Source: Lepas anatifera (Eukaryota; Arthropoda; Thecostraca; Lepadidae). From it: a stretch of DNA of 64,000 nt. Location: NCBI GenBank assembly GCA_034440635.1, contig JAOTON010001139.1, positions 32,103 to 96,102 on the forward strand, given 5' to 3'. The notes under the pieces were generated by a model that did not search any database, was not told the origin of the DNA, and saw only the letters and a list, made by a program, of their open reading frames with translations. This document shows positions 10,201 through 63,075 of the stretch, one piece after another; the stretch's first letter is position 1, and each line of letters opens with the position of its first letter. A program made the translations under genes and the position numbers.

Positions 10201-13200
10201 GGTGCTCGGCTGGCGCATATGAATTCGTCCTTGTCTCTGTTATATATTTCGTTGTATCGCTTAGTTTTTACTCTATTTGTCTTAGATGACGACCTCTGAG
10301 CCCCGCATAATTTTATTCCTGTCGCACTGTTTTAACCAATTCAGGGAATATTTTGTATACAAACTGGGGATCATTTTCGGTCCCCAGCCCCTCCCATTGG
10401 TCCCGTTCTTACGAATTTTCTCGATAGGGAAGCAGCGCCCTTATAGTACTAAAGTCTGAAGGCATGGTCCTCGTTCAACACGGGTATTTGTGTCCCTCGC
10501 AATTAAGACCGCTATGGCCGTCTAACAACGTTAAGTGTATGGAGTAGTAAAGCAAAGTGCCCGGTGAAAAACAAGGCGCCCTTCCGGCTGCCCAGGTTTA
10601 CCGTTTGAAGCCCTGAGTGTACCGTTTTCTCTCTTTGGCACCCAGTAAAAGAAAAACTAGAAAATGCACTGAGCCAGTCGTTTGTGTGTGTTTTCAGTGT
10701 AAACGGTGATGGTTTCTCCCTGCTGGACATCGCCGTGATGACCAACAACCAAGCCATGTCCCGCCTTCTGCTCACCTGCGGGGCAAGGGAGAGCTCGCAG
10801 TGTAAGTACATGTACGGAGCAAGGGAGAGCTCGCAGTGTAAGTACATGTACGGAGCAAGGGAGAGCTCGCAGTGTAAGTACATGTACGGAGCAATGGAGA
10901 GCTCGCAATATAAGTACATGTACGGAGTTGGGGAGATCTCGCAATGTAAGTACATCTGTGAGGGAGAGCTCGCAATGTAAGTACATCTGTGAGGGAGAGC
11001 CTGCAATGTAAGTACATCTGTGAGGGAGAGCTCCCAATGTAAGTACATGCACGGAGCAAGGGAGAGCTCGCAGTGTACTCTTACGGGGCAAGAGAGAGTA
11101 GGCAGCTCAGTTTCAGTACACAGATGGCTTACGTACGGGACAAACATGCTATTCAAGTCCATCTTGTGCGTTCTGTCTTTGTGTTGGGTGATGGATGACT
11201 CTTGGTTTGGGATCACCTCATGGCAGGAAGAAGGCATTTGGAACCGTATAGATGTGTTGGCAAAGACAAGGAAAACGCTGACAACAACAAACATTGGATA
11301 AAGCAAGGACAGGAGTTGAGTGATGGGACGAAGACCCCGGAAACTGACAATATCCCATGCGGCGCTTGTATGATGTTGGTTGTCCACTTATTTGGAGAGA
11401 AATCAGTTTGAAACGTCTTAGAATCGGTGATGAGTGGCGATGATCTATTTTCAATCTACCGCCTTGAAAACAAACTGCCAGAGCAGCTGTCGGTGACTTC
11501 TGATCCCCCAGAGATACTAAGCGCTGCATGAAGCTGACAAGCTAGAAACTTGCGAACTATGATTTATAAGACCCTGACATCATCATGAAAGACTTTTTTC
11601 GTTCAGCTTTCAAAGTTGCACAATTAAGAGTCCGTTTCAGCGTGAGTTAGAAAATGGGAAGTCACTTGCACGGGAAGTTTTACTCGGACAAGAATCAGCC
11701 AAGTAGAATTTTCATCAGAGTTTGCACTCTGAAGTTGGAATTTGAGTAAGGGACGGATTATGAATGATGTCGCGTGCTGAGAGGGGAGGTGGGTTAGCCG
11801 AAATTTGACGTGTATGATACGGGGTGGACTTTTTAAGGTGCCTTTTTTAATCATGTGTTGTTGGTTTTTCGCGGAATGTAAAGCTGCCTGAGTTAAACTG
11901 GGACCCGAGACATGCTTTTCTTTTGGGAAAAGAGTGACATGGATGTCAGACTTAAATTCTAAAGGTTAATGATTTATCTCCTTCTTTGTTGTATAACTGC
12001 ATTATTTTTAGCGTCTAAAATAGCATGTTTGGATAATGCCAACTGATGAGACATGGGGGTCGTAAATTGTCGACGGACTTGTGGCCGCCCTAAGATGACG
12101 CCATGACATGAAGAGGGGGAGGGGTTGGAAACCCGTAAACAGTGACGTCATTTAAGAACAGCTCCTAATAAACCATTCAACAGACAGGTCAGTGGGGTTG
12201 GCAACGTGAATAGCGATTGAGCAAAGGATGGTGGAAATGTCTATGCTGTGTATTTAAAGACATGATCAAATGGACATCACTTTAAAACGACTTAGAGCCC
12301 CAGTAGAGAGTTTTCCTTTGTGTTTACGGTCCTGCTTCTGCTTATCACCGGAGATAACTCCACAGTCGAAGCCGTAAATAGGCGGCTAACGAGGCTTTCA
12401 GTATAACAAACATCTAGAGGTCACGCCAAACAGGCCACAGTGACTTGCAGGCCTGTGGTCTTCGAGGCAAATTGGAAACGCGAGGGCGTGGAACATCTAA
12501 TGATTTCCTGGAAATTCAGGTTGTGTCACGGTCATGTAAGATGTGTGTCAGGGTGGTCACAAAAGACCGGCTTATTTTCGATTATTTACGTATTTCTGGT
12601 GCTTGTTTATTAAAACATGGCACTTTAGGGTCATTTTTGTTAAATAATGGTTGAGCAAAAATACAGATCTTCCGTGCTGTTACCTTAAAAGCGAACAAAG
12701 GGATCATTAAGTCTAAGCTTTGTTCATCATCAGTGAAGCAACGGCTCATCGACAAGTTGTAAGGCCCTTTCACACGTGGCAGTCTGGCTCAACTTCTGCC
12801 GGCAGACACAATAAAAGCACGTGGCAGCATGGTTGGCTGCCAAAAATGTCGGCAGATTCTGACGCGTGAGAATTGGCGTTAAGTGTCAATCAGTTTCAGT
12901 GTTAACTAGACTGCCTGGCGTATCACTTCTTTGGGAGTCTATACCGCCACTCAGCTGTCCAGTTGGCAGGAGAGTGTGTCATGACGACTAGAGTTCTTGT
13001 CCAGTCTGGTCTGGTCCATGCCAGAGATTTTACCGATCAGTCTGAGTCGATATCACTCTGAGTTGTTATCAACCCGTGTCATTATCAACCATAATCGTTA
13101 ATGGTCCGAATAGTATGATCCGAATCGTTATCAATCCGAGTTGCTATCAATCCCAATCGTTATCGATCCGAGTTATCAATCCGAGTCGATTTCAATCCGA

Positions 13201-23500: not shown

Positions 23501-26500
23501 GCTAAACGCCTAACGCCACACATGAAAGTTTGCATATGTCTGGTTAGGCACTCAAATTGGGCGCAATGGAACTGCTAATGTATCGGGTTACATGTCTTCA
23601 GACCCACATAACCTGCCCAGCTGGGTGTATGTAGAGGTCACTGTATGACCCGGGTGTCCCCGCGGCCTCAGGTCCCCTGACCCTCCCAGTCGAGTTTCGG
23701 TGGAGGCCACTGTATAACCCGTGTGTCCGCGCCCTCAGGTCCCCCTGACCCTCCCAGTCGAGTTTCTGTGGAGGTCACTGGACCGGAGGAGGTTCGTCTC
23801 CGCCTGGAAGAGCCTGACAATCAGCATCACTCCGTCTGCACCAAGTACAAAGGTTTGTCAAATGCAGTGGTGGATCTACACTGATTGTTCGGGGGGGCAA
23901 TGGGGTCTCAAATCGTGAAAACATCCGGTGTTGTTTAAAGGGCACAATTAGGGTTGTGGGGTGCAAATGTTTTCCCCTCCGTCCTCTAGATCCGCCTGTG
24001 GTCGGATGCCTAGTTTTGTAATGAAAGAGCGATCAGCATGGTTGGGGGGTGAGGGCACTGCAGTAGCAGTCAGAGATTACGCGCTGGTGTGAGTTCTGGG
24101 TCTGTGACCTATCACGGGGGGGTTCGGGGTTTGTCATTAGGTCAGATTTCGGAAAGCATCACAATCCTCTCTTTCCTCAGCGTTACAATAGTTAACTTTT
24201 ATGGGTATGCCCTACTGTGCATGTATATGATGTTTTGGAGCTAATAGAACCTCCACTGGATCGACGCTCGTGGGCCACTTTGTTCGCATCCACCACGGTG
24301 CAATGGTCGACTTCCTGGGATTTTACCCCACTGTGCGGCGAGTTGAACGTCACAGACCCGGTATTTTGCCGTGTCTGAAGAAGCAGCTGACTGTTGTCCC
24401 CTCCTCCACAGTACAATGGTCGACTTCGCCGGACTTTAGCCCACTGTGCGGGGAGCGGGACGTCACTGAGCTAGTGCCCCCGCCGGAGCTAGCGGTGGGA
24501 GGCCTGACACAAGGCCAGAGGCATTTCTTCCGCGCCGCCTCCGGCAACTTCTGTGGCTGGAGCAGGTTCATGACGTCACAGCCCAGCGGTCTGGTGCCCT
24601 CAGGTGAGACCAGTGTTCACCTCTTGTGTTCACTAGTGTTCACGCCTTGTGCGGACGAGTTTAACACCAACTTTTGTGTCAATGATTGTTGTTAATGACG
24701 TCTTGCGTCCGCGATTGTCTTGTGGCTGCATTTTGCTTCGTCTTGTGAACGCGTGAGTTCACTTTTTGTTCTCGCGGGTGTTCATTGAGCTGTAAGCGCA
24801 GCGGTGGTGATCTGAACATTTGATTTGGACATCGGGTGTGGTTGACGGGACGGAAAGTCTGTTTCCGTTCCCTACACTTGTTTCCGGCTTTCTAGACATG
24901 TAGACCTGGGTTTAACATCGCGTTCTGGCACCACTGGCGGATCCAGGGGGGCCCAGGGGCCATGGCCCCCAAAGCCCGAAATAGTATCTTTTGCCCCCAA
25001 AACGACCGACTTTTGGCCGTTTTTTTTAATCCTATGCTTTTTGCGATTTTTTCCCGATTTGGCCCCCAAAACGATGTTTTGGCCCCCTCAAAACTTTTTC
25101 CTGGATCCGCCAATGTCTGGCACCGACCAAAGCCAGGGCCATAGACTGGGTTTGTGCTTTTATGGTGATTCCCGTCCTGTTTGTTTGCTTTAATTACATC
25201 AGAACGCAAGGATTAGCTTGCTCGATGTGTTCAATGTGATGTATTCAGTGTGTTATATATGCTGATTGCTCATTGAATGCAAGCGAAAATGAACGCCTGG
25301 CTGACGGTTGCGGTGGGGTGTCTGAATTGAGTTCGGGATTGGGGGAAACAAACGAAAACAATATTAGGTAGATTTTCTGTGTGAATTACTTCCAAGTTAG
25401 GCTCATACACCCGCCGGAGGGTACTCTCGCGCTGAAACCTTGGGGCCGTAAATGGAAGATTGCGGTCTAAGTGTTTAGTTTTTGTGCGATCAACATCAAC
25501 GGAGCTGATTCGCCGGTCCTGAGTGGTTTCCTATCGAGCCCTGGTCCAGTGATAAGCCTCCGATAATGCGGCGCGTTGGCGGGTGAGGCGGCTCTGTAAG
25601 CCCTTCACTAGGGCTGGTGGTATCGAACTTGTTTTCCAGGCGAATAATTGCTAGTTTTTTTCCATTCTGAGAACCAAGGGAGGCTACAGGGCTCTCCCTC
25701 CCGTCCACCCCAAAATGTAATTGTCTATAGTTTATTCATAGTCGCAGGCTGTTTCGAGGCAATGGCGGGGGAGGCTCGAGACCCCTATCCCCGCCCCCCA
25801 GAATGTTTTCCTGGATCCGCCACTGCTGAGAACACAATTCCACGCTCGGATGTCTTCGCGTTCAATGGAAGTCATATAAAAGCGCACCTGCCCCTAAATG
25901 ACGCGCGTTCGCCACAAGCAATGACTGCAAGGCTCTGAAATCCGACTGGTTGTATCGCAGCTTTTGCTGTGTTGAGTGTAACTCCTGGTTGATTGCACTC
26001 CCTAGATGCATTTAATAATCGATATCTGTTTCATTTTCAAACTTGCAAGCTATTGAGGGGAGTATAGTAACGCCGTCTCCTTCCCGTCATCTGTCACCTA
26101 CGGATCCAGCGGGAAGGCAAAAATGCGTCCCCCGAAACCCCGATTTTTTCGGTTTTTGCCGATTTTCTGTAAAAGATCTGTACTTTTTACGATTTTGAAA
26201 CCCTTTACCTCCCCCGTCCCCGAACCATTGACCAAGCTCAAGCTCTGGTTGGAAGATTTAGCTCAGGTCGATAGTTAACTTGACCCATTTCCAAAGGCTT
26301 GTCCATCATGGTGGACCCACAATTTTAACAAATCAGCCTCCATTCCTTCTGCTTGGGGTTACGGACAACCATTATCGCACGGGTCATGTGATCAGAAAAT
26401 AGCGGTGTCGTGTCTCCAGGCAGCTGATAATCACAAGTTGTCACGTTCCCGAGGCCTGGTGTCAGACGTCATGGCACGCAGTGTCGGATCCAGGACTTCA

Positions 26501-44519: not shown

Positions 44520-44647
44520 TTAATGTGTAGCATGACTTGCATTTGACTTGTTAAATTCAAAGTCTGAGTTTCGGAAGCATTTCTTAATCTATGTTAATGG
44601 TACTTCATAATCGTAAGTGGCATATTTACTTCCGGAACATTGGCTTT

Positions 44648-44797
44648 CATATAACTGAGTTAGAATGTACGGACCGAATCTTACCTGTTTCATGTTTCGT
44701 ATAACGTGAGTTGAAATGTACGCACCGAATCTTAGCTGTTTCATGTTTCATATAACTGAGTTGGAATGTACGGACCGAATCTTACCTGTTTCATGTG
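44648..44797 (+). repeat. 51-bp tandem repeat, three units
   Basis: gagttagaatgtacggaccg then aatcttacctgtttcatg, repeated at 44657, 44708 and 44758 with few substitutions. Confidence 0.9.
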
Positions 44798-46137: not shown

Positions 46138-46188
46138 AGACGGTCGGACGGGAGGGACACCAGTCGCTCCGGCCTGAACCCACTTGGC

Positions 46189-48370
46189 AGTAGCCGACCA
46201 TAACCATCAAGAACTCTACTGCGCATGCGCAGCCTTTTCCCGCCACCCGACGGCGTGACCAGGGTTTCCTTGCTGGGGTAAGCTAAATTTAGAATTGTTT
46301 TATCACATCAGAAATGTCTTTCTTGACGTACTCAACCCTTCTATCAACATATAACAATATATAGTGCCGTAGAGAAAATGTCTGGACTCGCCTCTGGCAT
46401 GCCCTGGATTCTCGGCGGGAGGTTATGGGCGTCTACTGCTAATGCCGAGTATAGGGCGTATAGGTCGGCCAACTCTCTGCGGCCGGACCCGAGTTGCCAG
46501 TAGCCGACCATAACTATCAGACATTACTGCGCATGCGCAGCGTTTTCCCGCCCCTCGACGGCGTGTCCAGGGTTTCCTTGCTGAGGGAAGCAGATTTTAT
46601 GATTTTTTTATCATATTAGAAACGTCTTTCTTGACGTGCTCATTCCTTATATTAACATATTTTAGTATATGGTGTCGTAGATAAATCTTCTGAACTCGCC
46701 TCTGGCCTGACTTGGATTCTCAGCGGGAGGTTATGGGCGGCTACTGCTAATGCCGAGTAGGGCGTGTAGAGGCCGGCCAAATCGCTGCGGCCGGACCCGA
46801 GTTGCCAGTAGCCGACCATAACTATCAGACACTACTGCGCATGCGCAGCGTTTTCCCCGCCCCTCGACGGCGTGTCCAGGGTTTCCTTGCTGAGGGAAGC
46901 ATATTTTATGATTGTTATATCATATTTGAAACGTCTTTCTTGACGTGCTCATTCCTTATATTAACATATTTTTGTATATGGTGTCGTAGATAAAATTTCT
47001 ATTCTGGACTCGCCTCTGACCTGCCCTGGATTCTCGGCGGGAGGTTATGGGCGTCTACTGCTAATGCCGAGTATAGGGCGTATAGGTCGGCCAAATCGCT
47101 GCGGCCGGACCCGAGTTGGCAGTAGCCGACCATAACTATCAGACACTACTGCGCATGCGCAGCGTTTTCCCGCCCCTCGACGGCGTGTCTAGGGTTTCCT
47201 TGCTGAGGGAAGCAGATTTTATGATTGTTTTATCATATTTGAAACGTCTTTCTTGACGTGCTCATTCCTTATATTAACATATTTTAGTATATGGTGTCGT
47301 AGATAAAATTTCTGGACTCGCCTCTGACCTGCCCTGGATTCTCGGCGGGAGGTTATGGGCGTCTACTGCTAATGCCGAGTATAGGGCGTATAGGTCGGCC
47401 AAATCGCTGCGGCCGGACCCGAGTTGGCAGTAGCCGACCATAACTATCAGACACTACTGCGCATGTGCAGCGTTTTCCCGCCCCTCGACGGCGTGTCCAG
47501 GGTTTCCTTGCTGAGGGAAGCAGATTTTATGATTGTTTTATCATATTTGAAACGTCTTTCTTGACGTGCTTATTCCTTATATTAACATATTTTTGTATAT
47601 GATGTCGTAGATAAAACTTCTGAACTCGCCTCTGGCCTGACTTGGATTCTCAGCGGGAGGTTATGGGCGGCTACTGCTAATGTCGAGTAGGGCTTGTGGA
47701 GGCCGGCCAAATCGCTGCGGCCGGACCCGAGTTGCCAGTAGCCGACCATAACTATCAGACACTACTGCGCATGCGCAGCATTTTCCCGCCCCTCGACGGC
47801 GTGTCCAGGGTTTCCTTGCTGAGGGAAGCAGATTTCATGATTGTTTTATCATATTTGAAACGTCTTTCTTGACGTGCTCATTCCTTATATTAACATATTT
47901 TAGTATATGGTGTCGTAGATAAAATTTCTGGACTCGCCTCTGACCTGCCCTGGATTCTCGGCGGGAGGTTATGGGCGTCTACTGCTAATGCCGAGTAGGG
48001 CGTGTAGAGGCCGGCCACATCGCTGCGGCCGGACCCGAGTTGCCAGTAGCCGACCATAACTATCCCGACTATCTGTTGCGCATGCGCGGCCTTTTACCGC
48101 CACTAGGCGACGTATCCAGGGTTACATTACATGGGGATGCTGAGTTGATAGCATCAATTATTGCAAGGGAAACTCATCTCTGAACATTTCCACCGTTTTA
48201 TAAACAACAAATATACTGTGCCATAAATATTAATCTGAACTCGCCCCTGGCAGCCCTTCCATTCTCGGTGGGAGGTTAAGGGCGTCTGCTGATAATGCAG
48301 GGCAGACCATATAGATGTCGCGTCGGGTCGTTTCACCGATCGCAGGTGCCAATAGCCGACCATAACTATT
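46189..48370. repeat. 308-bp satellite, about seven monomers
   Basis: tagccgaccataac marks monomer starts at 46191, 46501, 46809, 47123, 47431, 47739, 48047 and a diverged 48353; most steps are 308 bp. Each monomer has the palindrome tgcgcatgcgcag and an inverted copy of its head (gttatgggcg(g/t)ctactg). Two variants (with gggcgtataggtcgg or gggcgtgtagaggccgg) alternate irregularly. A solo head is at 41705. Confidence 0.95.
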
Positions 48371-56577: not shown

Positions 56578-56884
56578 CTAACACGTCGTAACCTTCACTT
56601 CCCTCCGCGTCTCGGTGGCTGCCCTTTCCTTCTGACCGACACCTCCGCTCGGTCCGGCGGCGGAGCCGACAGGTGGCGGTGGCGGCGGCGGAGGCGGAGG
56701 CGGTAGAGGGGGCGTCAGGCGGGGCCTCAGAGGGGCCTCGCTCAGCCACTGTCGGAACTGGGCCTCCATCAGGCCCCGCGAGGGGCGCTGCCCACGTTGA
56801 CCGTGGGGATGATCTCGCGCGGCTGGACGAACTGGACGAAGCGGCGGAGTTCCGAGTAGCTGGAGTGTTCACTGTAGGGGACGC
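56578..56884 (-). CDS. DCLRE1A: DCLRE1A last exon D, with frameshift
   Basis: Minus-strand acceptor ccgtag precedes 56884. It encodes [32 protein letters not shown]. As written the frame then gives SAPRGA and a TGA at 56769-56771. Shifting by one base at the GGG of 56791-56793 restores the family spacing (seven residues between VG and Met) and reads [12 protein letters not shown]. That frame continues through a proline run to a stop at 56578, longer than the usual end of the family. Confidence 0.85.
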
Positions 56885-59800
56885 CTACGGAGCAGGTGGA
56901 ACGGTCAGCGCAGGAATTTACGCCGATTGATGGTACTTCAATAATAATTGCTGGGGTTTACCAAAGCACCAAACTGCCAATGTCATACGGCGTCGCCAAC
57001 TCTTACCCATGATGATGCAAATACAAAACCTCACTAATCACCTAGAAGAAGATTAAGATAATGAGTTTAACGAAACCATCCCCAGAAGTAAATGTGCCCG
57101 ACCTACAAAGCGAAATGGTGGGGATTTTATCGTTATACCAACAAAACACAACGCTTCTGCGCTTACATTAAGCCACAGCGACACTAGACACCCGCAGAGT
57201 CTGGTAGCGCCAGCACTGACACCTAGCCCCTCATCATCATCATGGTCGGCGTTTAAAGGGAATGTGGCACCTTGGTCGAATCCTGGAATTTAGTGTTTCG
57301 AAGGCGTACTTTTAGCCAAAAATAAGGAAACCACTCATGCTTTCTCTGAAAAATGAATAAGCTCAATATTGTGATTCTTGAAATACTCCTCTGGGAAAAC
57401 AAATAAATATCTGGATGTGGATGATGTCACGATCTGGCAGCCACTACCATACTTGAAATGCTTCAAGAGCTTCGATTGGCTGATGCTCATCGTGACGTCA
57501 GCATATGCCGTCACACCAGCAGCTCACAACAATGACCGCCCGGCGAGGAGAAAATGAGGGGTAGGTGTCAGGTAGGTTTTAGTTTTTTTCTACGGAAATA
57601 TCGAGTTCCAAGACAAATGATAAAAGGAGTACCGGGTTTTCCGACTTGCTTTAAAACTTGGCTATCTCAGTTAAAATCACGTTATGAAGGTGCCACATTC
57701 AATTTAAGGGCGTGACAAACATCACAGGGCATACGGCAGACCTAGCCCTAGCCCACTGCGCCCTCCACACCACACTGACCGTATATGGCGATGTTGCCGG
57801 ACACCTTGGGCTTGAAGTCGCCGTGCTTTTCGGCGTCCTTGCCGTGCTCCCAGCCGGTAGGCTTGATCGCCACGATGTGGGTGTACTGCGACTGGAAGAT
57901 CTTCAGGTAGTTATGCAGCGTCTGCCGACGAGCGCACACGCCCGGTCAGACCAACTGTGTGCAGGTGAACACCACAGCTATACATTTAATCGTTCCTACA
58001 GTTCGGGCAGGTCGGGCGCCTGACTTAAACTTCAACGGAGCCACATACCTAGCTTCACGGCGGTATCTAAGGGGAAGGACCTGGATTTTTTAGATTTATG
58101 GTCATTATCCCCGTGACACCCCCTACCTTCATAGTGGTGTCCCAATGACGTTTCCTGCCCTGTTGGTGAGTGTCATAATGGTACTGCTTACCCTCGTACT
58201 AAGGTGTCCCTAAAGGCATAATCTACCCTCATAGTGAGGACCGTGTCTTAATGACATAGCCTACCCTCACGGTGGGTGTCTCAGTGACGCCGCCTACCTT
58301 CATAGTGTCTCAGCAACATCACCTACCTTCATGGTGAGTATCTCAGTGATGCCGCCTACCTTCATGGTGAGTATCTCAGTGACATCACCTACCTTCATGG
58401 TGAGTATCTCAGTGACGCCGCCTACCTTCATGGTGAGTATCTCAGTGACGCCGCCTACCTTCATGGTGAGTATCTCAGTGACGCCACCTACCTTCATGGT
58501 GAGTATCTCAGTGACATCACCTACCTTCATGGTGAGTATCTCAGTGACATCAACTACCTTCATGGTGAGTATCTCAGTAACATCACCTACCTTCATGGTG
58601 AGTATCTCAGTGACATCACCTACCTTCATGGTGAGTATCTCAGTAACATCAACTACCTTCATGGTGAGTATCTCAGTGACGCCGCCTACCTTCATGGTGA
58701 GTATCTCAGTAACGCCGCCTACCTTCATGGTGAGTATCTCAGTAACATCAACTACCTTCATGGTGAGTATCTCAGTAACATCAACTACCTTCATGGTGGA
58801 GTATCTCAGTAACATCAACTACCTTCATGGCGAGCATCTCAGTGACATCACCTACCTTCATGGTGAGTATCTCAGTGACATCACCTACCTTCATGGTGAG
58901 TATCTCAGTAACATCAACTACCTTCATGGTGAGTATCTCAGTAACATCAACTACCTTCATGGTGAGTATCTCAGTAACACCACCTACCTTCATGGTGAGC
59001 ATCTCAGTGACGCCACCTACCTTCATGGTGAGGTGCCCCAGAGGCAGCACGTGGATGCGGGCCAGCCTCTGGTCGGTGGTGAGCCGCCGTTTGATCTGCC
59101 GCTCCTCCAGACACTGCAGGGTCCGCCGTTTGTCGGCTGACGCCCAGAACAGACAGTCCAGCGCCTCAGCCACCGTCAGGAACACCCGCTCCTTGCCTGC
59201 GTCAATATCAACGTCAGAAACACGACGTCAGATACACCCGCTCCCTGCCTGCCGCGGCGGCAACGTCAGAAACGCAACGTCAGAAACAGAGCGTCAGGAA
59301 CACCCGCTCCTTGCCTGCGTCAATATCAACGTCAGAAACACGACGTCAGGAACACCCGCTCCTTGCCTGCGTCAATATCAACGTCAGAGACACGACGTCA
59401 GGAACACCCGCTCCTTGCCTGCGTCAATATCAACGTCAGAAACACCACGTCAGGAACACCCGCTCCTTGCCTGCGTCAATATCAACGTCAGAAACACGAC
59501 GTCAGGAACACCCGCTCCTTGCCTGCGTCAATATCAACGTCAGAAACACGACGTCAGGAACACCCGCTCCTTGCCTGCGTCAATATCAACGTCAGAGACA
59601 CGACGTCAGGAACACCCGCTCCTTGCCTGCGTCAATATCAACGTCAGAAACACCACGTCAGGAACACCCGCTCCTTGCCTGCGTCAATATCAACGTCAGA
59701 AACACGACGTCAGGAACACCCGCTCCTTGCCTGCCGCGGCGGCAACGTCAGAAACACAACGTCAGAAACACGACGTCAGGAACGCCCGCTCCTTGCCTGC

Positions 59801-62522
59801 GTCAATATCAACGTCAGAGACACGACGTCAGGAACACCCGCTCCTTGCCTGCGTCAATATCAACGTCAGAAACGCGACGTCAGGAACACCCGCTCCTTGC
59901 CTGCCGCGGCGACGACGTCAGAAACACCACGTCAGATACACCCGCTCCTTGCCTGCGTCAATATCAACGTCAGAAACACGACGTCAGGAACACCCGCTCC
60001 TTGCCTGCGTCAATATCAACGTCAGAAACACGACGTCAGGAACACCCGCTCCTTGCCTGCGTCAATATCAACGTCAGAAACACGTCGTCAGGAACACCCG
60101 CTCCTTGCCTGCGTCGATATCAACGTCAGAAACACCACGTCAGGAACACCCGCTCCTTGCCTGCCGCGGCGACGACGTCAGAAACGCAACGTCAGAAACA
60201 GAACGTCAGGAACACCCGCTCCTTGCCTGCGTCAATATCAACGTCAGAAACACGACGTCAGGAACACCCGCTCCTTGCCTGCCGCGGCGGCAACGTCAGA
60301 AACACAACGTCAGAAACACGACGTCAGGAACGCCCGCTCCTTGCCTGCGTCAATATCAACGTCAGAGACACGACGTCAGGAACACCCGCTCCTTGCCTGC
60401 GTCAATATCAACGTCAGAAACGCGACGTCAGGAACACCCGCTCCTTGCCTGCCGCGGCGACGACGTCAGAAACACCACGTCAGATACACCCGCTCCTTGC
60501 CTGCGTCAATATCAACGTCAGAAACACGACGTCAGGAACACCCGCTCCTTGCCTGCGTCAATATCAACGTCAGAAACACGACGTCAGGAACACCCGCTCC
60601 TTGCCTGCGTCAATATCAACGTCAGAAACACGTCGTCAGGAACACCCGCTCCTTGCCTGCGTCGATATCAACGTCAGAAACACCACGTCAGGAACACCCG
60701 CTCCTTGCCTGCCGCGGCGACGACGTCAGAAACGCAACGTCAGAAACAGAACGTCAGGAACACCCGCTCCTTGCCTGCGTCAATATCAACGTCAGAAACA
60801 CGACGTCAGGAACACCCCGCTCCTTGCCTGCCGCGGCGACGACGTCAGAAACGCAACGTCAGAAACAGAGCGTCAGGAACACCGGTCACTGCTAGTATCA
60901 TCACGTATAGTCAGATGATTTGACCGGAAACCCGGTGGAGATAAAATGGGACTTGGAGAGAAATGTTCCCGCCTATGCGAGACTCAAGACCTAGCACACT
61001 ACTGGGATAATATTTGTATTCATTCATGCGTGGCACGGCTGTGCTCACTCACTTAAGTGAACTCCCACAGCTACGGAAGAATGTGCCGACTGACTGAGAG
61101 GAAACGAGTTTTGGACTGTTGCTAAAATTTCGAAAACCATATCCAAATAAACAATAAACAACAATAAAACTTTAAACTAAAGAATAAATAATTGACAAAG
61201 CAGTCTTAGGGGACATTAGCGTGCCACTGTTACCGTCAACATACCTATCGGCTAAGCTCCCGTCTGGCAATACACAAACCAAACACTTAACCCTCGCCCC
61301 ACCGAGTGGGCCATCGATGGGCCCCTCTAAGGTTTTTTCGGGATAACAGAAAAACGACGAGGTGCAGCACCACGGTTAAGGGCTCTATCTCTCACCCCAT
61401 CATTTTCCCACCATCGCTGAGTTTTTTTTACCCCAGGTCACCCAAGGTCAGGTCACCAGGCGAGGTAAGCCAAGGCCACCTCACTTCAACTTTTGAGCGC
61501 TATAAGAGGTATATTTCTAGGTCGATTGATTTGAAACTTTCTGCACTTAATGACCTCTCCAGGGTCTACATCATGTATATCCGGGATTTTTAGATTTCGT
61601 GACCTGAGGTCAAGTCACGAGGTGACCTCTCCCATTGTAAAATAATGGGGAAAAGCTGTCTTATGATCTAAAAGTCACAAAAACGATTGCAAATGCTCAG
61701 CTTGCTCAGAAAATCGTTCTTGGACACCCTTTACGGATCCCAGGAGCAATATTTGCCCTTTGACCTCTCCAAGGTCATCCAGTCACCAGGGTCCAAAACA
61801 GAATTTTGCCAATATCTTGTGACCTAAATTAAGCTAGAGCGCTGAATCAAACATCATCGTGTATGTCTCGTCACTGGCTTCCGTTTGATATACGGCAACG
61901 TCACTTTCTGACCTTTCGTGACCTCAGGTCATATTAGGTCACGAGGTGGCCTCTGGAGGTCAAACCACTGGCGGGAGGTCATTACGTTCCAAATAGCGGA
62001 AAAAAGGTCTGGCATTTTCCTATCAAATGTACTTTACCAGATCTCCAAAAGCTCTAATGACATAAGAGTTATGTCAAGTTTTCTTGAGCATTGCATATTT
62101 GAGTGAAAATATCCTATTGTGACCTAAATTGACCTCTGGAGGTCAAACCATTGACCTGAGCGCTTAGACATGCAAAGTAATTTCTAACTGAATTCACGGG
62201 AGCTTTCTAATGCACTTTGCAGATTTGCGCTAACCCACATCTTTTCGGAGTTAGAGGGGGCCATCGATGGCCCCGGTGGGGCGAAGATGGCACCGGACCG
62301 CCGGTGGGGCGCGGGTTATTAAACACTGAAACACCATGATGACACCAGCAGTTACATCGTCATGTCCACCATCCCAGATGTCATGTCCAGCACTGACCGA
62401 TGGTGTAGCTGCCGCAGACGATGAGCGTCTTCGGGTTCTTCTGGATCGCCTCGTTGACGATGCGCACGCACTGGTGCAGTATATCCGACTGGCTCGGGAA
62501 GTCGTACACGGGGTCACAGTAC
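56578..62522 (-). CDS. DCLRE1A: SNM1A / DCLRE1A DNA cross-link repair nuclease, C-terminal exons
   Basis: Four minus-strand exons (62398-62522, 59021-59196, 57780-57921, 56578-56884) join in phase and encode the C-terminal beta-CASP/DRMBL part of SNM1A, a 5' exonuclease that acts in interstrand cross-link repair in the nucleus. Signatures in order are [57 protein letters not shown] and IIPTVNVG. The metal-binding HxHxDH part of the beta-lactamase fold is not visible and should lie beyond 64000. The His of YSEHSS and the Val of PTVNVG correspond to late beta-CASP motifs. The last exon carries a one-base frameshift near 56791-56793. Introns around the second exon are filled with copies of its own splice edges. 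Confidence 0.92.
57257..57703. mobile_element. TTAA-flanked MITE, 450-bp family, copy 3, inverted
   Basis: TTAA at 57253-57256 and 57704-57707. The interior is the reverse complement of copies 1 and 2. It lies 76 bp from the DCLRE1A exon C donor. Confidence 0.87.
57780..57921 (-). CDS. DCLRE1A: DCLRE1A exon C (PTGW block)
   Basis: Minus-strand acceptor cgtcggcag precedes 57921; donor gtcagt follows 57780. It encodes [47 protein letters not shown], the conserved RPTGW-equivalent strand and the approach to the SEHSS motif. It enters in phase 0 and exits in phase 1. Confidence 0.93.
58290..59020 (-). repeat. 33-bp minisatellite made from DCLRE1A exon B donor edge (about 22 copies)
   Basis: Read on the minus strand every unit contains CACCATGAAG followed by GTAGGT, the last bases of exon B plus its donor, then a spacer such as gatgtcactgagatact. 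Steps are 33 bp from about 58328 to the true donor at 59020. Units differ at a few positions (gatgtc/ggcgtc). The 33-bp length keeps the exon frame, so reading through units would add repeats of 11 residues. Confidence 0.95.
59021..59196 (-). CDS. DCLRE1A: DCLRE1A exon B, flanked by arrays of its own edges
   Basis: Minus-strand acceptor gatattgacgcag precedes 59196; donor gtaggt follows 59021. It encodes [58 protein letters not shown] and aligns well with the KEKVFLA to MQINFK stretch of vertebrate SNM1A. Both of its boundary sequences are amplified in the neighbouring introns. Confidence 0.93.
59197..60885 (-). repeat. 52-bp minisatellite made from DCLRE1A exon B acceptor edge (about 31 copies)
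   Basis: Each unit, read on the minus strand, holds gatattgacgcag, then the first ~23 nt of exon B (starting GCAAGGAGCGGGTGTTCCTG). I count about 31 ccttgcctgc/ccctgcctgc sites including the real acceptor, mostly 52 bp apart. Longer variants of about 66-68 bp carry a cgcggcg insert. A higher-order duplication of about 548 bp is visible (the same variant pattern begins near 59734 and 60282). Because three units are 156 bp, all frames stay open on the plus strand, producing long spurious ORFs. Confidence 0.95.
61291..62315. mobile_element. 1-kb TTAA-flanked MITE, copy 3, inverted and more diverged
   Basis: TTAA at 61287-61290; the right flank is TTAT (mutated). The sequence is the reverse complement of the other two copies with many substitutions. 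It ends 82 bp from DCLRE1A exon A. Confidence 0.85.
62398..62522 (-). CDS. DCLRE1A: DCLRE1A exon A (YCDPVYDF ... GSYTIG)
   Basis: It encodes [41 protein letters not shown]. Minus-strand donor gtcagt follows 62398 (phase 1). The 5' boundary is set at the gacag repeated upstream. Because that edge is a 33-bp in-frame tandem repeat, the true acceptor could be one or more units further upstream, and none has a good pyrimidine tract. Confidence 0.85.
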
Positions 62523-62632
62523 CTGTCGAACCAGTCGTACACGGGGTCACAGTACCTGTCGAACCAGTCGTACACGGGGTCACAGTACCTGTCGAGCCAG
62601 TCGTACACGGGGCCACAGTACCCGTCGAACCA
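62500..62632 (-). repeat. 33-bp repeats of DCLRE1A exon A acceptor edge (4 copies)
   Basis: Units begin at 62501, 62534, 62567 and 62600. On the minus strand each carries gacag followed by GTACTGTGACCCCGTGTAC, the start of exon A. The phase is preserved: the unit encodes [11 protein letters not shown]. Confidence 0.92.
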
Positions 62633-63075
62633 CGCGGCAACGTTAGATAAACATGTGCCCTATCGTACACCAACGTTAGACAATGCCATAATGTCACAGT
62701 ACCTGTCGAACCAAGCGGCAACGAAAGATAAACATGTGGCCCTATCGTACATCAAGTTAGACAATGCACATAATGTCCCAGGTAACAGTCGAATCACGCG
62801 GCAACGGAAGATAAACATGTGCCCTATCGTACACCAACGTTAGACAATGCCATAATGTCACAGTACCTGTCGAACCAAGCGGCAACGTTAGATAAACATG
62901 GGCCGTATCGCACACCAACGTTAGACAATGCGCATAATGTCACCGTAGCAGTCGAATCACGCGGCACCGTTAGATAACGTGCACAATGTCACAGTACTCG
63001 TCGAACCACGCGGCAACGGTAGATAAACATCTTCCGAACCGTGAATGACGTATGTCAAACCACATGTCAACGTTA
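62633..63075. repeat. Decayed larger repeats continuing the exon A array
   Basis: Blocks with gtcacagtacctgtcgaac, gcggcaacgttagataaaca and caacgttagacaatg recur with irregular spacing. They extend the 33-bp array into a noisier tandem structure. Confidence 0.7.

Follow-up and report, generated by a model that had tools for sequence, protein, structure and literature searches.

The DCLRE1A gene and its repeated exon edge

The window, by which we mean the whole 64,000-nucleotide stretch of the Lepas anatifera genome analyzed here, contains the DNA-repair gene DCLRE1A (SNM1A) and an ANKFN1/wide-awake-like gene, and tandem arrays lie on exon borders of both. Exon borders were assigned from splice signals and tblastn. 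The exons of DCLRE1A and the parts of the array at the donor edge of exon B are as follows, in transcript order:

62398..62522, minus strand: DCLRE1A exon A, by splice signals and tblastn
59021..59196, minus strand: DCLRE1A exon B, 176 nt, its final 12 nt being the exonic share of a 33-bp unit
58297..59032, minus strand: 33-bp donor-edge array of 23 clean copies, led by the exon's own copy, with donors running from 59020 to 58297
58795..58828, minus strand: copy 7 of the array, 34 bp, with a one-base insertion that closes the in-frame run
58100..58296, minus strand: decayed 33-bp copies toward the intron interior
57780..57921, minus strand: DCLRE1A exon C, 142 nt, by splice signals and tblastn
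56784..56884, minus strand: the part of DCLRE1A exon D that matches in frame, by splice signals and tblastn

The peptide of the four joined exons aligns with human DCLRE1A over 180 residues without a gap (E 2e-52), which bears out the gene name given in a preliminary description of this DNA. It scores 181 bits against human DCLRE1A versus 52 against Apollo and 25 against Artemis, contains the DRMBL domain (PF07522, E 1.2e-35), and is identical to the Pollicipes pollicipes protein at 171 of 181 residues (94%), again without gaps. Within exon D, at 56734-56808 on the minus strand, the frame is lost after ...TVNVGSA relative to Pollicipes and similarity continues in another frame; an error of sequencing or of assembly, or else a damaged copy of the gene, may lie behind this.

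The array at the donor edge of exon B is long and regular. Tandem Repeats Finder (TRF) places it at 58252-59032, with 23.8 copies, 91% matches, and a score of 1161, and identity at a lag of 33 reaches 0.889, whereas none of 1000 single-base shuffles exceeded 0.309. Each unit joins 12 exonic to 21 intronic nucleotides: the exon end CTCACCATGAAG is followed by GTAGGT, GTAGTT, or GTAGGC and then by a spacer, and the GT of the donor is present in all 23 clean copies. The roughly 22-fold amplification first reported at 58290..59030 is thus real, as is the composition of the unit from exon end, donor, and spacer, with the qualification that the donor hexamer takes three forms. Read in the exon frame, the first copies also give the 11-residue peptide type that had been described. 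Among 20 of the 23 clean copies, 9 of 33 columns vary. The idea that the unit is more constrained in its exonic than in its intronic part found no support, with variable columns numbering 2 of 12 in the exonic part and 7 of 21 in the intronic part in these 20 copies (P 0.43); both variable exonic columns come from a single copy adjoining the insertion.

Reading frame and choice of donor

For every one of the 23 donors, we built the join to exon C in silico. Only donors 1 to 7 keep the frame open, adding 0 to 66 residues, whereas donors 8 to 22 shift it by +1, and donor 23 lies at a distance that is a multiple of three yet behind a stop. The in-frame run ends at donor 7 because copy 7 is 34 bp long, with one extra base. 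The claim that the exon edge is amplified some 22 times in frame therefore fails, and the accompanying prediction, that splicing at the nth donor would add n repeats of 11 residues, holds in this in-silico splicing for up to six extra units and is wrong beyond them. A protein ladder in 11-residue steps is accordingly possible, judging from the sequence, with a maximum of six steps.

The donor sites themselves are hard to tell apart. The 9-nt site AAGGTAGGT is common to 10 of the 23 copies, namely, the proximal donor and 9 of the other 22, donors 2, 5, and 6 among them; the remaining sites are AAGGTAGGC or the weaker AAGGTAGTT. Two simple matrices were used for scoring, one from human frequencies and the other from 18 of the 20 donors mapped in the window, and under these the identical sites are equal. 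The idea that the proximal donor is intrinsically stronger thus found no support, as 10 of the 23 donors are identical in sequence, and the site alone cannot pick it out.

The join made at the exon-proximal donor aligns without gaps to both human and Pollicipes SNM1A, and this donor therefore looks ancestral. In an alignment of 24 relatives, hand-chosen from 78 database matches, the exon B-C junction shows a single extra residue in two and no larger insert in any, so protein length is conserved here. Homology thus favors use of the exon-proximal donor, insofar as sequence comparison can speak to it. In the structure predicted for the Pollicipes protein (mean pLDDT 84.6), the junction, between residues 254 and 255, falls at the start of a helix (253-262), and since the helix starts there, inserts would likely be harmful. 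Exon B together with the repeat frame, used as a protein query, had no match with E <= 0.001 in a set of 6060 candidates.

Arrays at other exon borders

Besides the donor array, four more exon borders carry arrays, across the two genes:

62500..63026, minus strand: exon A acceptor-edge array of DCLRE1A, four exon-proximal 33-bp copies, with decayed copies outward in 81-bp units
59174..60915, minus strand: exon B acceptor-edge array of DCLRE1A, 52-bp unit, by TRF
10779..11077, plus strand: donor-edge array of ANKFN1-like exon 3 (10698-10801), 36-bp unit, 8.7 copies
23634..23780, plus strand: acceptor-edge array of ANKFN1-like exon 5 (23739-23852), 68-bp unit, 2.1 copies

As had been proposed, both borders of the 176-nt exon B are minisatellites, with TRF arrays at 58252-59032 and 59174-60915. 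We asked whether unit lengths divisible by three might point to a function and set the idea aside, since 3 of the 5 border arrays have such units (33, 36, and 33 versus 52 and 68 bp), which is unremarkable.

The ANKFN1/wide-awake-like gene comprises 18 exons at 1096-39563 on the plus strand that read open without a stop, the start of exon 1 not being fixed. Its product is 80% identical to that of the barnacle Amphibalanus (787/982) and 76% identical to that of Pollicipes (551/723), and, among other crustaceans, 43% identical to that of Daphnia (340/785) and 46% identical to that of Scylla (354/762). By protein similarity the DNA therefore belongs to a thoracican barnacle; amphioxus, initially considered as host because the arrays resemble its border repeats, was rejected, since barnacle proteins gave the best matches. 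This gene and DCLRE1A (56784-62522) stand on opposite strands within 64 kb, a linkage that may be conserved in Pollicipes. The start of ANKFN1-like exon 6 may have a decayed duplicate upstream of it (24235-24363, plus strand; tblastn E 8.5e-4), weak in the comparison of copies with the exon edge, and the repeats at exons 5 and 6 have only two copies each.

Two further arrays lie elsewhere. At 44645-44796 on the minus strand, a 50-bp unit occurs three times after a short ATG-initiated open frame, two of the units with a donor-like CAG|GTAAGA; we left it out of the border count because there is no gene model there. At 46164-48123, a 308-bp tandem array (6.3 copies, 90% matches) lies off the mapped exon borders. 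A third gene was sought at 40 to 56 kb, where none of the seven open reading frames tested matches Pfam at E <= 0.01.

Placement and growth of the arrays

The window has 41 exon borders, and we defined a strong array as one with a period of at least 10 and a TRF score of at least 100, after rows had been merged by hand. With an exonic overhang of up to 60 nt, 5 of 8 strong arrays lie on a border, against 0.29 expected (0 of 20000 permutations); at up to 40 nt, the count is 4 of 8 against 0.20 expected (0 of 20000 permutations, P 0.00015 in another run). Taking all 19 merged arrays (period >= 10, score >= 50), 5 lie on borders at 60 nt (P 0.00005) and 4 at 40 nt (P 0.001). The window is a nonindependent sample for this enrichment, as these very arrays drew attention to it. 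With DCLRE1A left out, enrichment is weak: of the 5 strong arrays that remain, 2 lie on borders at up to 60 nt (P 0.010), and the number drops to 1 at up to 40 nt (P 0.107). A comparison of border 40-mers with controls outside border arrays gave no strong contrast (4/41 versus 244/5449), and we therefore relied on the test of array placement.

Likeness to the exon edge declines with distance at ANKFN1-like exon 3 (rho -0.84, n=10) and at exon A of DCLRE1A (rho -0.99, n=8), although in all of these correlations a score of 1 is built in for the seed copy. The corresponding decay is not significant in the arrays of exon B, either at the donor (rho -0.26, P 0.20, n=26) or at the acceptor (rho -0.24, P 0.18, n=33). 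Inside the exon B acceptor array, at 59655-60817, an exact match of 615 bp occurs at a lag of 548, reflecting either recent multi-unit duplication and growth or an assembly fault.

An exon edge as the probable seed of a minisatellite

The explanation that we favor, and consider probable, is that the exon edge seeded an unstable exon-border minisatellite that splicing at its proximal donor mostly removes, other donors being used occasionally. How the array amplified, what part the exon played as its anchor, and how its donors are used we infer as follows. A short tandem duplication would have arisen once across the exon B donor, taking in 12 nt of exon and 21 nt of intron, and the resulting 33-bp unit would then have been amplified via slippage or unequal exchange. 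Selection to maintain both the coding sequence and the splice signal would preserve the exon-proximal copy, which could act as an anchor able to reseed the array while distant copies decay. Splicing would occur chiefly at the exon-proximal donor. With so many donors identical in sequence, minority use of others is probable: a minority of transcripts would probably use donors 2 to 7, in frame, and so gain 11 to 66 residues where the helix adjoining the DRMBL core begins, while later donors would cause a frameshift. Most likely, then, the proximal donor serves, the array is inert or mildly disturbing, and its length is unstable; that length could differ among individuals.

One alternative holds that these are chance intronic tandem duplications, some touching exon edges, that leave RNA unaffected and have no special tie to borders. 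Tandem arrays are indeed common in the window, as the 19 merged arrays with a period of at least 10 attest, enrichment outside DCLRE1A is weak at the stricter cutoff, and border 40-mers stay close to their controls; the excess of strong arrays on borders over expectation and the identical donors within the array nevertheless make this account unlikely.

Alternatively, the length of the array may alter splicing, long alleles leading to skipping of exon B or C or to intron retention, with DCLRE1A lowered and no repeats added. At the human ABCA7 intron 18 VNTR, longer alleles showed more skipping of exon 19 but no more retention of units (PMC5954066). Exon B is flanked by arrays on both sides, and neither exon B (176 nt) nor exon C (142 nt) is a multiple of three. 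Border repeats of amphioxus, however, seemingly leave regular splicing intact according to the globin and PGBD5 papers (PMC3087553, PMC3902484), and we regard an effect of this kind as rather doubtful.

A regulated or tolerated ladder of protein lengths, in which distal donors are used substantially and DCLRE1A carries one to six extra 11-residue repeats, strikes us as improbable. The in-frame position of donors 2 to 7 and the sharing of the donor 1 site by donors 2, 5, and 6 speak for it, and the retention of a single unit observed at human ABCA7 (PMC5954066) means that the idea of distal donors is not fanciful. Against it stand the placement of the insert within the predicted helix, between residues 254 and 255, the finding that no aligned relative of the 24 exceeds one extra residue there, the lack of a match in the repeat-frame protein search, and the broken frame or stop that follows from donors 8 to 23. 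Finally, the assembler could have created the exact 548-bp duplication or set the length of the array. The 615-bp match would suit this, and the exon D frame break would fit an uncorrected one-base error, but among 20 donor copies 9 of the 33 columns vary, and two genes have border arrays whose units differ, so an artifact is very improbable.

A seeded, unstable border minisatellite thus remains our preferred reading, and it invites a wider one. Tentatively, and with somewhat more doubt than belief, we suggest a barnacle-wide class of exon-anchored minisatellites, in which a selected exon edge would act as an everlasting seed with growth toward the intron, many genes would have unstable ladders of donors or acceptors, and transcripts of DCLRE1A alleles would differ in 33-nt steps. 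Should border minisatellites be as common in barnacles as the window suggests, they would be a recurrent result of tandem duplication near a constrained exon edge rather than a chordate oddity. They would then offer a natural test of how the spliceosome chooses among many identical donors and of exon-border duplications as a route to new introns, and they would be a source of variation in gene length.

Comparison with known border repeats

A 2002 paper reportedly described so-called mirages in amphioxus Adh, and length polymorphism is said to have been reported for amphioxus Adh3. Mirages are minisatellite-like repeats across exon/intron borders and are documented for amphioxus Adh, globin, TnC, and PGBD5 (PMC3087553, PMC3902484). 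In the globin genes, both borders are affected, many copies carry AG/GT signals, and RT-PCR suggests that regular splicing is undisturbed; the same text cites somatic instability at Adh3 (PMC3087553). The likeness to the barnacle arrays is close, as both consist of border-straddling tandem units with splice signals at 5' and 3' borders, the units of mirages measuring 10 to 160 bp. The donor array spans the border between exon B and its intron (58252-59032) with 12 nt of exonic overlap, just as the definition of a mirage describes. The barnacle case differs in its arthropod host, in its 23 clean donor copies, and in its extent, which covers both borders of exon B and the acceptor of the preceding exon.

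Among the matches listed by a literature search with few subscription journals, there was no crustacean report of an exon-border minisatellite. By term look-up, neither "tandem repeat" nor "minisatellite" occurs in the main text of the P. pollicipes genome paper or in that of the B. improvisus genome paper, and a Daphnia tandem-repeat paper contains neither "splice" nor any of three exon-border terms.

Two other systems bear comparison. The human ABCA7 VNTR begins at the exon 18 donor, with 23.7 reference copies of 25 bp (PMC5954066), and it is, like the barnacle array, a minisatellite at an exon donor in which the donor is repeated. Its unit starts with the GT itself and has a length that three does not divide, whereas that of the barnacle includes 12 exonic nucleotides and allows six extra units in frame; the ABCA7 report also draws on population and RNA data, whereas the barnacle array is known here from its sequence. 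Intron gain by tandem genomic duplication (PMC4974935) shares the duplication of a stretch with splice signals, but the barnacle gene shows no new intron, and its copies are intronic, between exons that give a conserved protein. The barnacle array matches both the amphioxus mirages and the ABCA7 VNTR: it is a mirage-type exon-border minisatellite, of a known kind, found in a crustacean and on both sides of exon B.
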